64,000 nucleotides of DNA from Deltaproteobacteria bacterium. Lineage in GTDB: Bacteria; Myxococcota; Myxococcia; Myxococcales; SZAS-1. The number at the start of each line of letters is the position of its first letter. Positions within the stretch are counted from its first letter, which is position 1. The notes below the pieces were generated by a model. It worked only from the letters and a program-made list of their open reading frames with translations, made no database searches and was not told where the DNA came from. Made by a program: the position numbers and the translations under genes. Shown piece after piece: positions 56,751 through 64,000 of the stretch. Location: contig JAFEBB010000033.1 in the NCBI GenBank assembly GCA_018266075.1, positions 1 to 64,000 on the forward strand. Direction: 5' to 3'.

Positions 56751-58058
56751 TCAGGCCGACGCGCGCACCGCCGGCGCAGCGAGCCCGAACACGCGCACCA
56801 CTTCTTCCTTGCCCTTGAGCTTGTGCTCGCCGCGATCTTCGCAGCCGCTCGCGAGCTCCTGCGGAAGCCCGGCCATGACCGCCGCCGTGAGCAGCACGTC
56901 GGTCCCCAGCGCGTTGTTCAGGTTCTCCACGCGCGAGGCCGTGTTCACGGCGTCGCCCACCACCGCGTACTTCACGCGCGTGTGCGAGCCGAGGTTGCCC
57001 GCGACCACGCGACCCGAGTGCAGCCCGATCCGCGAGGCGAGCTGCGGGATCCCGTGCGACTTCCACTGCGCCGACTCGCCCGTGGCGTCCCAGTGCTTGT
57101 TGAGCTCCTCGGTGCGCACGCGCATGCGCGCGGCCACGCGCACCGCGCGCGCGGCGTGGTCGGGCAGCGAGTTGGGCGCGCCGAACACGGCCAGGATGGC
57201 GTCGCCGAGGAACTCGATCACGCAGCCGCCCTCGGCGTTGATGATCTCGCTCATCGCGCCGAAGTACTCGTTGAGCAGTCCCACCACGCGGTCGGGCTGC
57301 AGCGATTCGCAGATCGTCGAGTAGCCGCGGAGGTCGCTAAACAGGATTGTTACGTCGCGGGACTCGCCGCCGAGCTTGGTGCCGTCCGGGTTGTCGAGCA
57401 CCGCCTGCGCGACCTCCTCGCTCACGTAGCGGCCGAAGGTCTCACGCAGCATGCGTCGCGCCTGCTCGAGGACCTTCTGGCGCGCCACGCCGGCCACCAG
57501 CTCCCGCGTGAACGTCACGATGCTCAGGCACACGAAGCCCAGCACCGCGTACGCGCCCATCACCGCCGCCACGCCGCCCCATTCCACCTCGCCGAACAGG
57601 AGCAGCATGGCGGAGGCGCCCGCACAGAAGAGCACGGTGGCCACCACGCTTCCCGTGCGCATGGTGAGCACCGAGATGCCCACCAGCAGCATCAGCAGCG
57701 CGCAGCCGAGCGTGGCCATCCCCGCCGGCGAGGGAGCCAGCGGAATGGCGGCGAGCATGATCTGGAAGATGAAGGGCAGGTCGAGCACCGGCCCGCCGAG
57801 CCACGACTTGCGCAGCACGATCGGGTTCGCCATCGCCACGAAGAGCAGCGCCAGCGAGGCAATCAGGTAGGCCACGGCGTAGGGGAAGGCGGCCCGGAGA
57901 TCGGCGCGCGTGCCATGCACACCGTAGATGCCGCAGGCGGCCAGTGTGGTCGCCGCGGCGATCCCGCGGAGCAGCAGGTATCGTCGCGCATTGCCAAGGC
58001 GGATCTCCGAGGCCACCCGCGAGAACCCGCTTCGGTCTGAGTCGTGCGCGTCGCTCAC
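56751..58058 (-). CDS. Membrane-bound class III nucleotide cyclase
   Basis: A 435-residue protein. GTG 58058 has AGGAGG 6 bases upstream. About six membrane helices form a sensor-like N-terminal half (residues ~25-195). A short coiled linker (ARRMLRETFGRYVSEEVAQA) leads to the cyclase domain with VTILFSDLRGYST (metal Asp), VIEFLGDAILAVFG (second Asp; Glu at the purine-selecting position where Lys is usual) and VGDAVNTASRVENL (Asn/Arg). It probably makes cAMP or cGMP in response to a membrane cue. A TAAC-N6-type patch covers the FSD codons. Confidence 0.9.
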   Translation of the reverse strand: MSDAHDSDRSGFSRVASEIRLGNARRYLLLRGIAAATTLAACGIYGVHGTRADLRAAFPYAVAYLIASLALLFVAMANPIVLRKSWLGGPVLDLPFIFQIMLAAIPLAPSPAGMATLGCALLMLLVGISVLTMRTGSVVATVLFCAGASAMLLLFGEVEWGGVAAVMGAYAVLGFVCLSIVTFTRELVAGVARQKVLEQARRMLRETFGRYVSEEVAQAVLDNPDGTKLGGESRDVTILFSDLRGYSTICESLQPDRVVGLLNEYFGAMSEIINAEGGCVIEFLGDAILAVFGAPNSLPDHAARAVRVAARMRVRTEELNKHWDATGESAQWKSHGIPQLASRIGLHSGRVVAGNLGSHTRVKYAVVGDAVNTASRVENLNNALGTDVLLTAAVMAGLPQELASGCEDRGEHKLKGKEEVVRVFGLAAPAVRASA

Positions 58059-58163
58059 GCCGCGCCTCCTTCGCCGATCTCCGTGGAGCATCTCACGCCA
58101 CGGGAGCGCGAGGGAGATCGGTTCTTCGTGGACGCACGCCCGCGCGCCCGCGAGACTTGCGCG

Positions 58164-59123
58164 ATGTTGCGGCTCGCCCTCATCGCTCTGAGCGAGCTCG
58201 TCTTCACGCTCGGCCGACGGCTCACGCGCGGCCCCATGCGGCCAACGTGGACGTTCAAGCTCGAGTGGCTGGCGATGGCGCTTCATCGCGACACGCTGGC
58301 TTCGAGAGATGAAACCATTCGGTTACATCGCGCGCGCTCGGATGCGATGGCGGGCGAGCCCAAGCTGCTCGGGTTGCAGCGCGTGGACGAGACGATCGCA
58401 GGCGTACCGTGCGTGCGGCTGGAGCACGCGGACGGCGCGCCGAATCGGCCGCTGTTCGTGTACCTGCACGGCGGCGGCATGCAGAACGGGTCGTTCCGGA
58501 CGCACGGCGGGCTCGTCGCTGCGCTCGCGAAGAAGAGCGGCCTCGATGCGCTGGTTCCGCTCTATCGCCTCGCGCCCGAGCATCCGTATCCCGCGGGCCA
58601 TGACGACGTGACTGCGGTGGTGCGCGAGCTGAGCAAGTCGACACCGCTCGTGCTCGCGGGCGACTCCGCGGGCGGGCTCTTGATGCTTGGGCTCTGCATG
58701 CGGCTTCGGGCGGAGGGCCTCGCGATGCCGCTGCGAGGCGTGGCCATCTGCCCGTGGGTCGATCTCGCGCGCGAAGCGCCGAGCCGGGTCGAGAACACGC
58801 GCTTCGATTGGTGCCTCCGCGAGGACTGGCTGGCCTGGGCCGAGACCTACGCGCCGAACGTGAATCGCGAGACGCCCGAGCTCTCGCCCGTGCGCGCGGA
58901 CCTCACGGGCTTGCCGCCGCTGCTCGTGCAGTACGGTACCGCGGAGTGCATCGCCGACGAAGCGCACGCGCTTTGTGAGCAGCTGCGACGTGCGAACGTG
59001 AACGTCACCGAGCAGCCCTGGCCCGACATGATCCACGACTGGCACATCCTGGCGGGGCAGGGCATCCCGCAAGCAAGAGACGCCATCGATACCGCTGCGC
59101 GCTTCCTCGCGGGCCAACCCTGA
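58164..59123 (+). CDS. Alpha/beta hydrolase of the HSL (hormone-sensitive lipase-like) family
   Basis: A 319-residue esterase. The oxyanion motif is YLHGGGMQNGS and the nucleophile lies in LAGDSAGGLL. The Asp/His pair falls in YGTAECIADE and DMIHDWHIL. ATG 58164 avoids overlapping the divergent cyclase start; the frame is open further upstream to a GTG at 58044. A short N-terminal hydrophobic helix may anchor it. A TAAC-N6-type patch at 58312-58325 introduces a TTA Leu codon. Confidence 0.9.
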   Translation: MLRLALIALSELVFTLGRRLTRGPMRPTWTFKLEWLAMALHRDTLASRDETIRLHRARSDAMAGEPKLLGLQRVDETIAGVPCVRLEHADGAPNRPLFVYLHGGGMQNGSFRTHGGLVAALAKKSGLDALVPLYRLAPEHPYPAGHDDVTAVVRELSKSTPLVLAGDSAGGLLMLGLCMRLRAEGLAMPLRGVAICPWVDLAREAPSRVENTRFDWCLREDWLAWAETYAPNVNRETPELSPVRADLTGLPPLLVQYGTAECIADEAHALCEQLRRANVNVTEQPWPDMIHDWHILAGQGIPQARDAIDTAARFLAGQP

Positions 59124-59147: not shown

Positions 59148-61769
59148 ATGCCCGCGCCCCTCGAGAAGCTGCTCCCCAAGCCTGGCGATCCACCGCTGTC
59201 GAGCGACGAGATCCTCTCGCGCTTCGTGGGCTACGTGGCCGACCAGGGCCTCGAGCTCTACCCCGCGCAGGAAGAAGCAATCCTGGAGCTGCTCGCGGGC
59301 AAGCACCTCTTCCTCGCCACGCCGACGGGATCGGGCAAGTCGCTGGTCGCGATGGCGGCCATCTTTCAGGCGCGCTGCGAGGGCAAGACCGCGTACTACA
59401 CGTGCCCCATCAAGGCGCTCGTGAACGAGAAGTTCTTCGCGCTCTGCGAGGCGTTCGGCGCCGAGAACGTGGGCATGGCCACGGGCGACGCGAGCATCAA
59501 CAAGGACGCGGCCATCGTGTGCTTCACGGCCGAGATTCTCGCCAACGCCGCCCTGCGCGATCCGTACCGCGAGATCGACTGCGTGGTGATGGACGAGTTC
59601 CACTACTACGCCGACAAGGATCGCGGCGTGGCCTGGCAGATCCCGCTGCTGCTGCTCGAGAAGACGCGCTTCCTGCTCATGAGCGCCACGCTCGGAGATA
59701 CTTCACACATCCAAGCAAAGTTGCAGGAGGTGTCGAAGCGCGAGGTGGCGAAGATTGCCAGCGCGCAGCGCCCGGTCCCGCTCGACTACGAGTACGCCGA
59801 GACGCCGCTGCACGAGACCATCCAGAAGCTGCTCGAGACGGAGCGCGCGCCGGTCTACCTCGTGAACTTCACGCAGCGTGCGGCCGCCGAGCAGGCCCAG
59901 GCGCTCACCAGCGTGAACTTCAGCAGCAAGGAGACGAAGGCCGCCATCGCCGCGGAGCTCGAAGGCGTCCGCTTCGACACGCCGTTCGGAAAGGACATGC
60001 AGCGCCTGCTGCGCCATGGCGTCGGGCTGCACCATGCGGGCCTACTTCCGAAGTATCGACTGCTCGTCGAGAAGCTCGCGCAGATGGGACATCTGAAAGT
60101 GGTGAGCGGCACGGACACGCTCGGCGTGGGCGTGAACATCCCCATTCGCACCGTGCTCTTCACGCAGCTCTGCAAGTACGACGGCGAGAAGACCGGCATC
60201 CTCACCGCGCGCGACTTCCATCAGATCGCCGGACGCGCGGGACGCAAGGGCTTCGACGATCGCGGCACCGTCGTCGCGCAGGCGCCCGAGCACGTCATCG
60301 AGAACGCGCGCATCGCTGAGAAGGGGAAGAAGAACGCCGTCAAGAAGCAGCCGCCCACCAAGGGCTACGTGCACTGGGACAAGAACACGTTCGAGAAGCT
60401 CATCGGCAAGGCGCCGGAGCCGCTCGAGTCGCGCTTTCAGGTCACGCACGGGATGCTGCTGAATCTCCTCCAGGCGTATCCGACGCCGTCCGCGTGGCGC
60501 TCCGAGCAGCCCGAGGCGCGCGGACCGAAGCCGCCGCGCGGTGGTGGCTATGGCCGACTCGTGCAGCTCATCTCGCGCTCGCACGACAACGCCTACCTGC
60601 AGCGCAAGCACCGGCGACATGCGAAGCGCGCCTTCTCGAGCTTGCGCAGCGCGGGGATCGTGAACGTCGTGTTCGGCGAGCAGAAGCTCGGGCGCTTCGT
60701 GGAAGTGAGCGATGCGCTCCAGCGAGATTTCTCACTCAACCATTCCCTTTCACTCTTCCTGCTCGACATCCTCGCGCGCATTCCGCGCGAGTCGGAGACC
60801 TACCCGCTCGACGTGATCAGCATGGTGGAGGCCATCCTCGAGAACCCGATGGCCGTGCTCTACAAGCAGGTCGACGAGCTCAAGACGCGCAAGATGACGG
60901 AGATGAAGGCGCAGGGCATGGAGTACGAGGAGCGCATCGCCGAGCTCGAGAAGATCACCTGGCCCAAGCCGCACGCGGATTTCATCTACGCGAACTTCAA
61001 CGCCTTCGAGCAGCTGCACCCGTGGCTGAGCGACGACGACATCCGGCCGAAGAGCGTCGCGCGCGAGCTGCTCGAGAGGTTCTGCACCTTCAACGACTAC
61101 GTGCGCGAGTATGGCCTGCAGCGCAGCGAGGGCGTGCTGCTGCGGTACTTGAGCGATGTGTACAAGACCGTGGTTCAGAACGTGCCCGAGACCTACAAGT
61201 CCGACGAGTTGCTCGATCACGTCGCCGCGCTGCGCACGCTCTTGCGCTCCACGGACTCGAGCCTGCTCGACGAGTGGGAGAGCCTCCGCAATCCTGGCGC
61301 GGCGAAGGAGCCGGGTGCTGTCGTTCCAACGGGCCCGCTGCCGCTCGATCACGATGCCAAGGCGTTCAACGCGCGCGTGCGCGCGGAGTTGCACCGGCTG
61401 GTGCGCGCGTTCGCAGCGAAGAACGCCGAGGACGCGCTCGCTGCCATCTTCGATCCCGACGAGCAGTGGGACGCCGCGAGGCTCGCCGAAGCGTGGAATC
61501 CCTTCTTCGCCGAGCACGACAAGTTCGATCTCACGCCGCAAGCGCGCCGGCCGCAGCACACCTTCATCACCAAATCCGGCCCGGGGAAGTACGACGTCCG
61601 GCAGCGCGTGTTCGCGTTCGAGCCGCCCAAGCCCCAGGTCCAGATCGAGGGCGTCGAGCCGGAGCCCGAGGAGCCGGGCGGCGAGTGGTTCCTCGAGGGC
61701 GTGGTGGATCTGTCCGTCGAGCGCCCCCCGGACGCGCCCCTCGTGGGCCTTCGCCGCTTCGGCCGCTGA
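59148..61769 (+). CDS. DEAD/DEAH-box helicase of the Ski2/DUF3516 type
   Basis: An 873-residue superfamily 2 helicase. Walker A is TPTGSGKS (Lys64), motif II is DEFH, motif III is SATLGD, and motif VI is HQIAGRAGRKG. The C-terminal ~450 residues match the DUF3516 extension found in bacterial Ski2-like proteins (GMLLNLLQAYPTP, YPLDVISMVEAILENPMAVL). It probably unwinds RNA in turnover or ribosome biogenesis. It starts 24 bases after the hydrolase gene. Confidence 0.94.
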   Translation: MPAPLEKLLPKPGDPPLSSDEILSRFVGYVADQGLELYPAQEEAILELLAGKHLFLATPTGSGKSLVAMAAIFQARCEGKTAYYTCPIKALVNEKFFALCEAFGAENVGMATGDASINKDAAIVCFTAEILANAALRDPYREIDCVVMDEFHYYADKDRGVAWQIPLLLLEKTRFLLMSATLGDTSHIQAKLQEVSKREVAKIASAQRPVPLDYEYAETPLHETIQKLLETERAPVYLVNFTQRAAAEQAQALTSVNFSSKETKAAIAAELEGVRFDTPFGKDMQRLLRHGVGLHHAGLLPKYRLLVEKLAQMGHLKVVSGTDTLGVGVNIPIRTVLFTQLCKYDGEKTGILTARDFHQIAGRAGRKGFDDRGTVVAQAPEHVIENARIAEKGKKNAVKKQPPTKGYVHWDKNTFEKLIGKAPEPLESRFQVTHGMLLNLLQAYPTPSAWRSEQPEARGPKPPRGGGYGRLVQLISRSHDNAYLQRKHRRHAKRAFSSLRSAGIVNVVFGEQKLGRFVEVSDALQRDFSLNHSLSLFLLDILARIPRESETYPLDVISMVEAILENPMAVLYKQVDELKTRKMTEMKAQGMEYEERIAELEKITWPKPHADFIYANFNAFEQLHPWLSDDDIRPKSVARELLERFCTFNDYVREYGLQRSEGVLLRYLSDVYKTVVQNVPETYKSDELLDHVAALRTLLRSTDSSLLDEWESLRNPGAAKEPGAVVPTGPLPLDHDAKAFNARVRAELHRLVRAFAAKNAEDALAAIFDPDEQWDAARLAEAWNPFFAEHDKFDLTPQARRPQHTFITKSGPGKYDVRQRVFAFEPPKPQVQIEGVEPEPEEPGGEWFLEGVVDLSVERPPDAPLVGLRRFGR

Positions 61770-61828: not shown

Positions 61829-62794
61829 ATGAGCTCGCCCGTCCCCAGACCCGTCGCTGTGCCGCACGCGGAGCCCGCGCGGCGCCGCCGCATGATCGCC
61901 GTCGGAGGCGGGAAGGGCGGCATCGGCAAGACGCTCGTGTCCTCGAGCCTGGCCATCGAGCTCGCGCGCCGCGGCAAGGAAGTCGTGCTGCTCGACGCCG
62001 ATCTCGGCGGCGCCAACGTGCACACCTGCCTGGGCATGGACCCGCCGCTGGTCACGCTCTCGGACTTCGTGAACAAGCGCGTGGCGCGAATCGAAGACGT
62101 CGCGCTGCCGACGGGCATCGAGGGCCTGCGCGTGGTGGCCGGCGCGCTCGACGCGCTCGACGCCGCGAATCCCAAGTACCAGCAGAAGCAGAAGCTCTTG
62201 CGCCAGGTGCAGCAGCTCGACGTGGACTACGTGGTGCTCGATCTCGGCGCCGGCACGCACTTCAACGTGCTCGACTTCTTCCTCGTGGCCGACCAGGGCA
62301 TCGCGGTGCTCATGCCCGAGCCGACCAGCATCGAGAATGTTTACCGTTTTGTTAAGGCCGCGTTCTTCCGGCGGCTGGGCTACCTGTCGGATCAGCTGCC
62401 CATCAAGCAGCTCGTGGAGCAGGCCATGAGCCAGCGCGGCGCGCCGCGGACGCCGTATCAGCTCCTCACCGAGGTGGAGCGCCTGGCCCCCGAGGCCGCG
62501 CCGCTCATCCACCAGACCATCGCCTCCTACCGCCCCGGGCTCATCGTGAACCAGGCGCGCAGCCGCGAAGACTTGGAGATGGGCTACTCGGTCACGGCCG
62601 CGTGGAAGAAGTTCTTCGGCCTGGAGATGGATTTCCTGGGCGCGCTCTCCTACGACGACGAGGTCTGGCGCTCGGTGCGTCGACGCCGGCCGGTGCTGGT
62701 CGAGAAGCCGTCGTCGCGGGTGGCGCAAGACTTTGCTTCGGTGGTCAACGAGCTCCTCTTCCTCGAACAGCAACAGCGCGCGCGCTCCGCATGA
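61829..62794 (+). CDS. MinD/ParA-family ATPase
   Basis: A 321-residue P-loop ATPase. The deviant Walker A motif VGGGKGGIGKT has its signature Lys at residue 29. Switch I (LLDADLGGANVHTCLGM) and switch II (YVVLDLGAGTHFNVLDFF) are typical of the FlhG/MinD group in this phylum. The C-terminal third (MGYSVTAAWKKFFGLEMDFL) is shared with that group. It likely positions or counts a membrane or polar complex. The stop overlaps the next start (ATGA). Confidence 0.93.
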   Translation: MSSPVPRPVAVPHAEPARRRRMIAVGGGKGGIGKTLVSSSLAIELARRGKEVVLLDADLGGANVHTCLGMDPPLVTLSDFVNKRVARIEDVALPTGIEGLRVVAGALDALDAANPKYQQKQKLLRQVQQLDVDYVVLDLGAGTHFNVLDFFLVADQGIAVLMPEPTSIENVYRFVKAAFFRRLGYLSDQLPIKQLVEQAMSQRGAPRTPYQLLTEVERLAPEAAPLIHQTIASYRPGLIVNQARSREDLEMGYSVTAAWKKFFGLEMDFLGALSYDDEVWRSVRRRRPVLVEKPSSRVAQDFASVVNELLFLEQQQRARSA

Positions 62795-63831
62795 AGAGCC
62801 CCCTCGAACAGAATTACTACGAGCTGCTCGAGGTGCCGCGCGACGCGACGCTCGCCGAGGTCGATCGCGCCTACGATCGCGCGCGGGCGTACTACGGCGC
62901 GGGCAGCGTGGCCGTGTACACGCTGGTGCAGCCCGACGAGCTCAAGCGCGTCCAAGACCGCATCGACGAGGCGTATCTGATCCTCGCGGACGAGAAGGCG
63001 CGCCAGGAGTACGACGCGCGCATCGGTCCGCCGGGTCCCGACGAGCGCCCGCTGCACAAGGACGTGCGGCTCGCCCGCGAGAAGGACGAGGCCAAGAAGG
63101 AAGAAGCGCGCAAGGAGAAAGAGGCCGAGCGCCTGGAGGCCGAGAAGGCCGCCGAGAAAGCAGCCGAGCAGCCGCCTCCCGCGCCGCCGGCCACCGAGGC
63201 CAAGCCGCCCGAGCCCGAGGTGAAGCGCGAGCCGACCCCCGCGCCGATGCCTGCCGTCGCCAAGGAGCCCACGCCCGCGCCGATGCCGGCCGTGGCCAGG
63301 GACACGACTCCAACGCCGATGGCTGCCGTCGCGAAGGAGCCCGAGCCGAAGCCGTCGGAGCCGCCGCCTGCGTCCGTTGCGAACACTGCCCGGCCTCCCT
63401 CGCAGGCGAACAAGATGGCGAGCGAGGGCCCGCTCCCGCCGCCGTCGATGGACTACCCGGAGCCCACGCCGCGCGCGGCCGCGTTCGCTGCGACCGTGAA
63501 GAAGGAGCGGCCGCCGGAGGTCTCGCCGAAGCCGGCGCCGAAGCCCGAGGTGCCCGACGACGCGGTCTTCACCGGCGACCTCCTGAAGCGCCTGCGCGAG
63601 GCCGCCGGGATCACCCTGCACGAGCTCGCGGACCGCACCAAGATTGGCCGTCCGCACCTGGACAACATCGAGAACGATCGCTTCGGCGCGCTGCCGGCGC
63701 AGGTGTATCTGCGTGGCTTCCTGATGTCGTATGCGCGGGAGCTCCGGCTGGATCCGCTGCGAGTCTCCAAGAGCTACCTGGAGCAGGTGGCGGCCCAGAA
63801 GGGCAAGGCGGGGGCCAAGCCGCGAAGTTGA
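62791..63831 (+). CDS. J-like domain plus RodZ-type HTH protein
   Basis: A 346-residue protein coupled to the MinD-like ATPase. Residues ~5-75 resemble a J domain (NYYELLEVPRDATLAEVDRA, AYLILADEKARQEYDARIG), but the HPD tripeptide is missing, so DnaK stimulation is unlikely. A Lys/Glu helix and a long Pro/Ala linker with three 12-residue repeats follow. The last ~80 residues are a RodZ/HTH_25-type helix-turn-helix (LREAAGITLHELADRTKIGR, then HLDNIENDRF). Unlike RodZ, it has no membrane helix. It is probably the partner or regulator of the ATPase. Confidence 0.88.
   Translation: MKSPLEQNYYELLEVPRDATLAEVDRAYDRARAYYGAGSVAVYTLVQPDELKRVQDRIDEAYLILADEKARQEYDARIGPPGPDERPLHKDVRLAREKDEAKKEEARKEKEAERLEAEKAAEKAAEQPPPAPPATEAKPPEPEVKREPTPAPMPAVAKEPTPAPMPAVARDTTPTPMAAVAKEPEPKPSEPPPASVANTARPPSQANKMASEGPLPPPSMDYPEPTPRAAAFAATVKKERPPEVSPKPAPKPEVPDDAVFTGDLLKRLREAAGITLHELADRTKIGRPHLDNIENDRFGALPAQVYLRGFLMSYARELRLDPLRVSKSYLEQVAAQKGKAGAKPRS
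63229..63336 (+). repeat. Three 36-bp coding repeats in the linker of the J/HTH protein
   Basis: Units at 63229-63264, 63265-63300 and 63301-63336 encode EPTPAPMPAVAK, EPTPAPMPAVAR and DTTPTPMAAVAK. The third unit is diverged. Confidence 0.85.
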
Positions 63832-63887
63832 TTTCAGGGGGAAGCGTCCGTACCATCGTGCGGGTCTAGAGCTGAGAGGAACTCCGG

Positions 63888-64000
63888 GTGCCCATCACCG
63901 ACGAAGAGCGCGCGAAGGCCATGCGGTTGGCCCGCGCCATCGCCTCCGACATCTCCCTCTACAACGAGGAGAAGATCGTCAAGGGCATCCAGGCCGACAA
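63888..64000 (+). CDS. Conserved hypothetical protein, cut by the right window edge
   Basis: A GTG at 63888 with GAGAGGA upstream opens a frame that stays open to the edge (37 codons). The visible sequence (VPITDEERAKAMRLARAIAS, then DISLYNEEKIVKGIQAD) resembles a short segment I recall from proteins of deltaproteobacteria and myxobacteria that lie near MinD or regulatory genes. The function is unknown. Confidence 0.75.
   Translation, partial: MPITDEERAKAMRLARAIASDISLYNEEKIVKGIQAD

Follow-up and report, generated by a model that had tools for sequence, protein, structure and literature searches.

The last genes of the 64-kb stretch of DNA analysed here (the window) raise the question of whether a ParA/MinD-class ATPase and the protein encoded directly behind it, in which a J-like domain is joined through a linker to a helix-turn-helix (HTH) domain, work together as one unit, and, if so, how the two would be connected and what they would serve (Table 1). 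Both ORFs lie on the forward strand and overlap by ATGA, the start at 62791 falling inside the end of the ATPase gene, so the ATGA coupling given in the preliminary description of the locus holds. Pfam assigns the neighbours of the pair in the window to a helicase, a hydrolase and a cyclase, and a gene for RomX follows. The DUF3516 helicase occupies the place that HNH, SelA and SLT genes hold in many relatives.

Table 1. Positions in the window of the two paired genes, their domains and adjoining genes
Feature	Position	Strand	Evidence
ParA/MinD-class ATPase, FlhG/FleN-like, 321 aa	61829..62794	+	Pfam ParA, FleN match, structure model
ATPase residues 163-174 (PEPTSIENVYRF), with three J-pairing residues, matching MinD helix 7	62315..62350	+	alignment
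J-like/linker/HTH adaptor protein, 346 aa, ATGA-coupled	62791..63831	+	ORF, Pfam
J-like domain without HPD, residues 6-79	62806..63027	+	Pfam DnaJ
Loop SVAVYTL, residues 39-45, just after the place of the lost HPD	62905..62925	+	alignment
Three 12-residue Pro/Ala repeats in the linker, residues 147-182	63229..63336	+	sequence
RodZ-type HTH (HTH_25), residues 259-331, without membrane helix	63565..63783	+	Pfam, fold match
RomX orthologue, GTG start at 63888, cut by the window end (to ~64157 on the contig)	63888..64000	+	8zna match, family profile
DUF3516 DEAD-box helicase gene, upstream of the pair	59148-61769		Pfam
Class III nucleotide cyclase gene, upstream in the window	56751-58286	-	Guanylate_cyc 2.1e-28

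The ATPase scores 68.4 bits against the Pfam ParA profile (cut-off 27.1), and the deviant Walker A motif with its signature lysine, the catalytic aspartate and the Walker B aspartate are all present, with K29, K34, D56, D58 and D138 found in 49 of 49 aligned relatives. FleN is its best solved relative by sequence (2.3e-25) and also the best fold match of the structure model (pTM 0.83). The cut-off of the bacterial MinD equivalog is missed (67.4 versus 212.9 bits), and on the question of a MinD-type membrane-targeting helix, 14 ATPase C-termini compared by eye had no common tail. The protein, previously called MinD-like, thus belongs to the ParA/MinD class as proposed, but it is nearer to FleN/FlhG than to MinD. 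An N-terminal DQAxxLR motif is a hallmark of FlhG/FleN; it was not found at the N-terminus of the window ATPase (MSSPVPRPVAVPHAEPARRRR). Relative to FleN, the ATPase is longer by an insert of about 50 residues, profile positions 173-232 standing where FleN has 9 residues, and these extra residues were modelled as helices between 190 and 233.

Within the phylum, Myxococcota, a match to the ATPase at E<=1e-30 was obtained in 144 of 195 genomes, a number that includes some with a sister ATPase only (for example G016, G017, G110 and G148). The J gene lies directly downstream in 68 of the 70 genomes read with an orthologous ATPase locus; the 70 derive from the loci of 71 genomes, the window's own included, after removal of G017 (L079, sister type at 36%), with the sister-ATPase loci L080-L089 also left out. 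Because the J gene is so regularly found directly downstream at orthologous loci, the architecture goes beyond chance, and the pair is a real conserved unit. The two exceptions are G012, in which the ATPase is fused to the HTH without any J (L066), and G046, which has the ATPase elsewhere (L042) and an intact J/HTH gene between HNH and RomX (L105). In 59 of 69 genomes, the stop codon of the ATPase gene overlaps with a possible start (ATGA in 31, GTGA in 25 and TTGA in 3; G046, without J at that place, is included). At L057 (G157), J and HTH are in two different frames, which suggests a frameshift or an assembly error. The synteny survey advised in the preliminary description therefore finds the pair conserved, in a second phylum as well, and the HTH not only with unrelated partners. 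A scan of the genome collection by back-translated peptides gave 4 loci only. No description of the pair was found in a literature search of titles and the starts of abstracts, a search outside which the romX neighbourhood lay. Plasmid-borne spread was considered and rejected, since 72,556 plasmid records contained nothing matching the J/HTH protein at E<=1e-5, and so was a defence system, the PADLOC matches being only weak and generic.

The J-like domain, which in family members typically starts 5 residues from the N-terminus, scores slightly below the Pfam DnaJ cut-off in the window protein (26.7 versus 27.8 bits). The DnaJ model is matched by 41 of 44 family members at E<=0.01, and the solved J domain 9dyv matches the window domain with an E of 8.5e-6. 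Where solved J domains have YHPD, the window protein aligns with YGAG, and none of the 77 J hits at loci of the pair, which come from 68 genomes, some contributing two, has HPD; the ordinary J domains of L100 and L101 show HPD in the same alignment. At the HPD place, these 77 ATPase-paired loci have a loop of the form S-x-A-x-Y-x-L, with Tyr at residue 43 in 76 and Phe in the remaining one, and with Ser39, Ala41 and Leu45 each found in 65. The J domain had been described as degenerate, and HPD is indeed absent, but, judged from its sequence, the domain is not merely decayed: a conserved loop stands in place of HPD. Residues 1-80, which include the J-like domain, were modelled poorly, with pLDDT of 40-73 in ten-residue blocks, and no J domain is named among the 50 fold matches listed, which are mostly HTH proteins.

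The linker (residues 80-261) varies between 0 and 466 residues among family members, with a median of 160; in the window protein, it bears the Pro/Ala repeats reported before, the third of the three being imperfect. The HTH_25 profile is matched by 44 of 44 family members, with 68.7 bits in the window protein (cut-off 24.6). The assignment to a RodZ-type HTH without a membrane helix likewise stood, as a 19-residue window with a mean hydropathy above 1.6 occurs in only 1 of 44 members. In the structure search, the HTH fold matched YmfM (3fym) best and RodZ (2wus) fifth, and, more weakly, DNA-bound XRE proteins such as SinR (3zkc); the net charge of the HTH has a median of +2 in the family.

These matches bear on two other readings of the pair. 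We consider it unlikely, though worth weighing, that the J/HTH protein regulates transcription of the gene row in which it lies, with the ATPase as antiactivator, as FleN is for FleQ. The closest relatives of the ATPase, FleQ-FleN complexes included, speak for such an arrangement, as do the weaker HTH match to the DNA-bound XRE proteins and the positive median charge; against it, the best HTH match is the RodZ-type YmfM. FleQ is an AAA+ enhancer-binding protein, and the J/HTH protein differs from it in having no AAA domain by Pfam. Another reading, with a slim chance of being right, makes the pair a shape module, with MreB as the target of the HTH, as in RodZ, and the HTH protein positioned by the ATPase. 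HTH_25 is the RodZ domain and its fold matches the RodZ-MreB complex 2wus, but the J/HTH protein has no membrane helix and does not reach the RodZ equivalog cut-offs, and another HTH_25 protein of this genome is a better RodZ candidate (L182, G000:C45:43890-44072; hydrophobic C-terminal stretch by eye).

The pair extends beyond Myxococcota. In a second phylum, entered through the genome of L009, 30 of the 99 genomes searched had an ATPase profile match at 1e-40, and J plus HTH lay directly downstream in 10 of 20 ATPase loci fetched. Locus L143 has the order ATPase, J/HTH, RomX, pseudouridine synthase. Residue 43 is Tyr or His in 8 of 11 J domains of this phylum and neither in 3 of 11. Eleven sister-ATPase loci (L079-L089), 32-40% identical to the window ATPase, have no J/HTH gene. 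A gene for a PilZ protein lies just upstream in 3 of 3 tested second-phylum loci without J (L130:1024-1476, L131:926-1468, L136:941-1456), and, of four Myxococcota sister ATPases tested, two carry a fused C-terminal PilZ (L082, L089) and two have none. PilZ, a c-di-GMP receptor type, is thus a partner of some sister ATPases, adjacent or fused. With J/HTH in some loci and PilZ in others, the ATPase family therefore seems to exchange partner modules. After one sister ATPase (L083:5995-6402), a FliJ-like gene was matched at 1.8e-4, below the cut-off, which hints that this class may function in flagella or export.

The fate of the J domain where the ATPase is missing bears on how the two proteins are connected. 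Among 9 lineages that keep the HTH but in which the orthologous ATPase was not found (absence scored at E<=1e-20), J is either absent or has its loop destroyed in 8; in this ATPase-less set, G016 and G017 keep the sister type only, and ParA-like matches of another, partial or sister kind were seen in G042, G018 and G110. Nothing but the HTH remains in g8 (L107, L112), g38 (L108, L109, L181), f17 (L172, L173, L174) and f23 (L176, L179), and a J remnant without the loop in g44 (L102, L103), g24 (L104), g31 (L118) and f12 (L110); loci cut by contig ends (L113, L115, L116, L119, L120, L121) were excluded from the scoring, and genome G158 lay outside the set. The exception, g9 (L105, L106, L117), has the loop intact, though two of its three genomes have no ATPase at that threshold; the third has the ATPase elsewhere. 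By genus, the loop pattern fits 43 of 46 versus 1 of 9 lineages (Fisher p=1e-6, with genera that are not independent and a second row entered by hand).

Compared with 46 loci that have an adjacent ATPase, 12 that have none show lower J scores (p=1e-4), a comparison in which the J profile, built from ATPase-bearing loci, favours the 46; the HTH profile, built likewise, serves as control, and HTH scores have no clear drop between the same loci (p=0.08). The 46 include L057 and L066 at a J score of 0 (other frame and fusion without J, respectively), and the 12 include L105, whose genome has the ATPase elsewhere. An independent-pairs test on the pseudouridine synthase tree gave 3 fully supported pairs (9 on all branches), of which on average 2.4 of 3 go the same way and 0 the opposite way, too few for significance.

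Two gene fusions point in the same direction. In L111, ATPase, J and HTH form one 737-aa frame in which the loop is degraded to SAASEGL, and in L066, the ATPase is fused to the HTH and J is missing. If the role of J is to dock the HTH protein onto its ATPase, J would be dispensable once the two are covalently joined, and both fusions fit; the first case is qualified by the ATPase of L111, which forms a long branch and groups with sister ATPases. Despite the broad match of the family to the DnaJ model, the absence of HPD from all 77 J hits, the decay of J upon ATPase loss and the fusions with the ATPase make it hardly credible that the J-like domain has kept a role with Hsp70 or in folding and is paired with the ATPase by shared expression only.

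A candidate docking site emerged when 61 J-paired ATPases were compared with 30 others, the thresholds used yielding nine pairing-specific positions. E164 is present in 61 of 61 J-paired ATPases, E169 in 61 of 61 and R173 in 54 of 61, versus 6, 1 and 1 of the 30 others. All three share a 12-residue segment, PEPTSxENxYRF, which in the others is mostly PQxTSxQNxYxF. When aligned with E. coli MinD (3q9l; ATPase residue 177 on chain residue 159), they fall at MinD 146, 151 and 155; residues S148, D154 and I159 of MinD helix 7 are given in the available text of PMC6803595 as a site common to MinC and MinE. The three residues do not strictly track J, as L066, without J, keeps them and L111, with J, has lost all three. 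On the ATPase tree, 4 changes suffice to account for J pairing, so that descent may explain part of these residues. Because of the co-loss and the pairing-specific residues, we infer that the J-like domain probably docks on the ATPase through the loop replacing HPD. Known ParA/MinD partners use a charged, disordered N-terminus, according to the accessible portion of PMC10241942, which, as the J domain here typically starts 5 residues from the N-terminus, counts against the proposed docking.

The explanation we favour, and regard as reasonably probable, is that the pair forms one working unit, in which an ATPase is joined by a cognate J-like adaptor docking by its loop, with the HTH carrying cargo. 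In such a unit, the ATPase would cycle between a monomer and an ATP dimer, as the intact active site suggests. The J-like domain, having no HPD, should not drive Hsp70; its S-x-A-x-Y-x-L loop would dock on the ATPase, with the helix corresponding to the MinC/MinE site of MinD as the most likely place. The linker of variable length, presumably flexible in view of its low-confidence model and its Pro/Ala/Glu make-up, would tether HTH_25, which may bind cargo, either protein or DNA. Upon loss of the ATPase, the J domain would no longer be needed and would decay, the HTH keeping an independent role.

What the unit serves may be read, tentatively, from its surroundings. The third gene of the row has no Pfam or NCBIfam match, and the idea that it represents an unknown family was rejected on a match of its 89-residue product, over residues 3-89, to the solved RomX structure 8zna (E 4.6e-37), a protein of M. 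xanthus. The family profile matches RomX with an E of 4.7e-45, and the relative of this protein in L055 is identical to 8zna over 87 residues. The short conserved family of the preliminary description is RomX, which 171 of the 195 genomes possess. Together with RomR, RomX acts as exchange factor for MglA in Myxococcus front-rear polarity (PMC10329633, PMC7332107, PMC9481161), and neither the ATPase nor the J/HTH protein is among the module members named in the available text of these papers.

Adjacency to RomX is partial. RomX lies <=4 kb downstream on the same strand in 29 of 66 ATPase loci tested (the fusion L066 among them); 13 of the others are cut short and 24 have no RomX, of which 20 have a J domain, which puts RomX beside the pair at 29 of 49 clear loci. 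Among the larger clusters, the conserved neighbour families of the relatives are SLT, SelA, HNH, RomX and pseudouridine synthase; the SLT, SelA and HNH clusters, upstream of the pair, cover 25-29 of 52 loci. HNH, RomX and pseudouridine synthase stand side by side, with both genes of the pair lost, in G164 and seven f2 loci (L162-L167, L169, L170); RomX as an inseparable part of the pair was rejected on these loci. Of the 11 second-phylum genomes in which the pair was seen, 9 gave no match to RomX at 1e-8. The polarity module of the preliminary description thus gains an adjoining polarity gene in Myxococcota, but the support is positional and RomX persists without the pair. Because adjacency is partial and RomX is mostly missing in the second phylum, the link to polarity may be taken as a lead within Myxococcota and not as a general property of the pair. 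The leading guess for the task of the unit, from the gene row with romX, would be the placing of the RomR/RomX-MglA polarity machinery.

Among ParA/MinD ATPases, the partners vary widely, and many of the enzymes still count as orphans (available part of PMC10241942). If the docking proposed here is true, the J-like domain would be a new type of partner, in which a chaperone module has been retargeted to a different ATPase. The route by which RomR/RomX and MglB/RomY complexes reach the poles was called unknown before PMC10329633, as far as the accessible text of that paper goes, and the row with romX bears on that route. In its widest form, the proposal is that the J domain changed masters, its HPD loop having been rebuilt as a dock for a MinD-fold ATPase and not for Hsp70, so that it founds a new class of ParA/MinD partner that in Myxococcota helps to place RomR/RomX-MglA at the poles; we put this forward as possible, though doubtful as a whole.

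Among known systems, FlhG/FleN, the ATPase of polar flagellum number, provides the nearest solved relatives by sequence and fold. The pair's ATPase differs in its extra residues and its J/HTH partner, and no flagellar gene is among the five conserved neighbour families identified from the larger clusters. MinD with MinE and MinC is of the same ATPase class, and the three J-pairing residues map to the helix used by MinC/MinE, but the pair's ATPase lies below the equivalog cut-off and its partner is unrelated to either protein. In mitochondria, Pam16/Magmas has a J-like domain without a working HPD that acts as a partner, its own partner being Pam18. The J/HTH protein is like it in using an HPD-less J-like domain as a partner and unlike it in what is bound, Pam18 not being a MinD-fold ATPase. 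PomX/PomY/PomZ of Myxococcus xanthus, compared by description only, likewise comprises a ParA/MinD ATPase with cognate partners, and the available text of PMC13170346 mentions no J or HTH partner. SflA of Vibrio is a DnaJ-domain protein genetically tied to the MinD-like FlhG, but, in the accessible text of PMC7226244, it is a membrane protein with a TPR-like part, encoded outside flagellar gene clusters, and no HTH is mentioned. RodZ has HTH_25 in common with the J/HTH protein, which has no membrane helix and carries a J-like domain in front. The RomR/RomX exchange factor of MglA is related by position, as RomX is encoded by the gene adjoining the pair. We infer that the pair represents a ParA/MinD ATPase with a new sort of partner.
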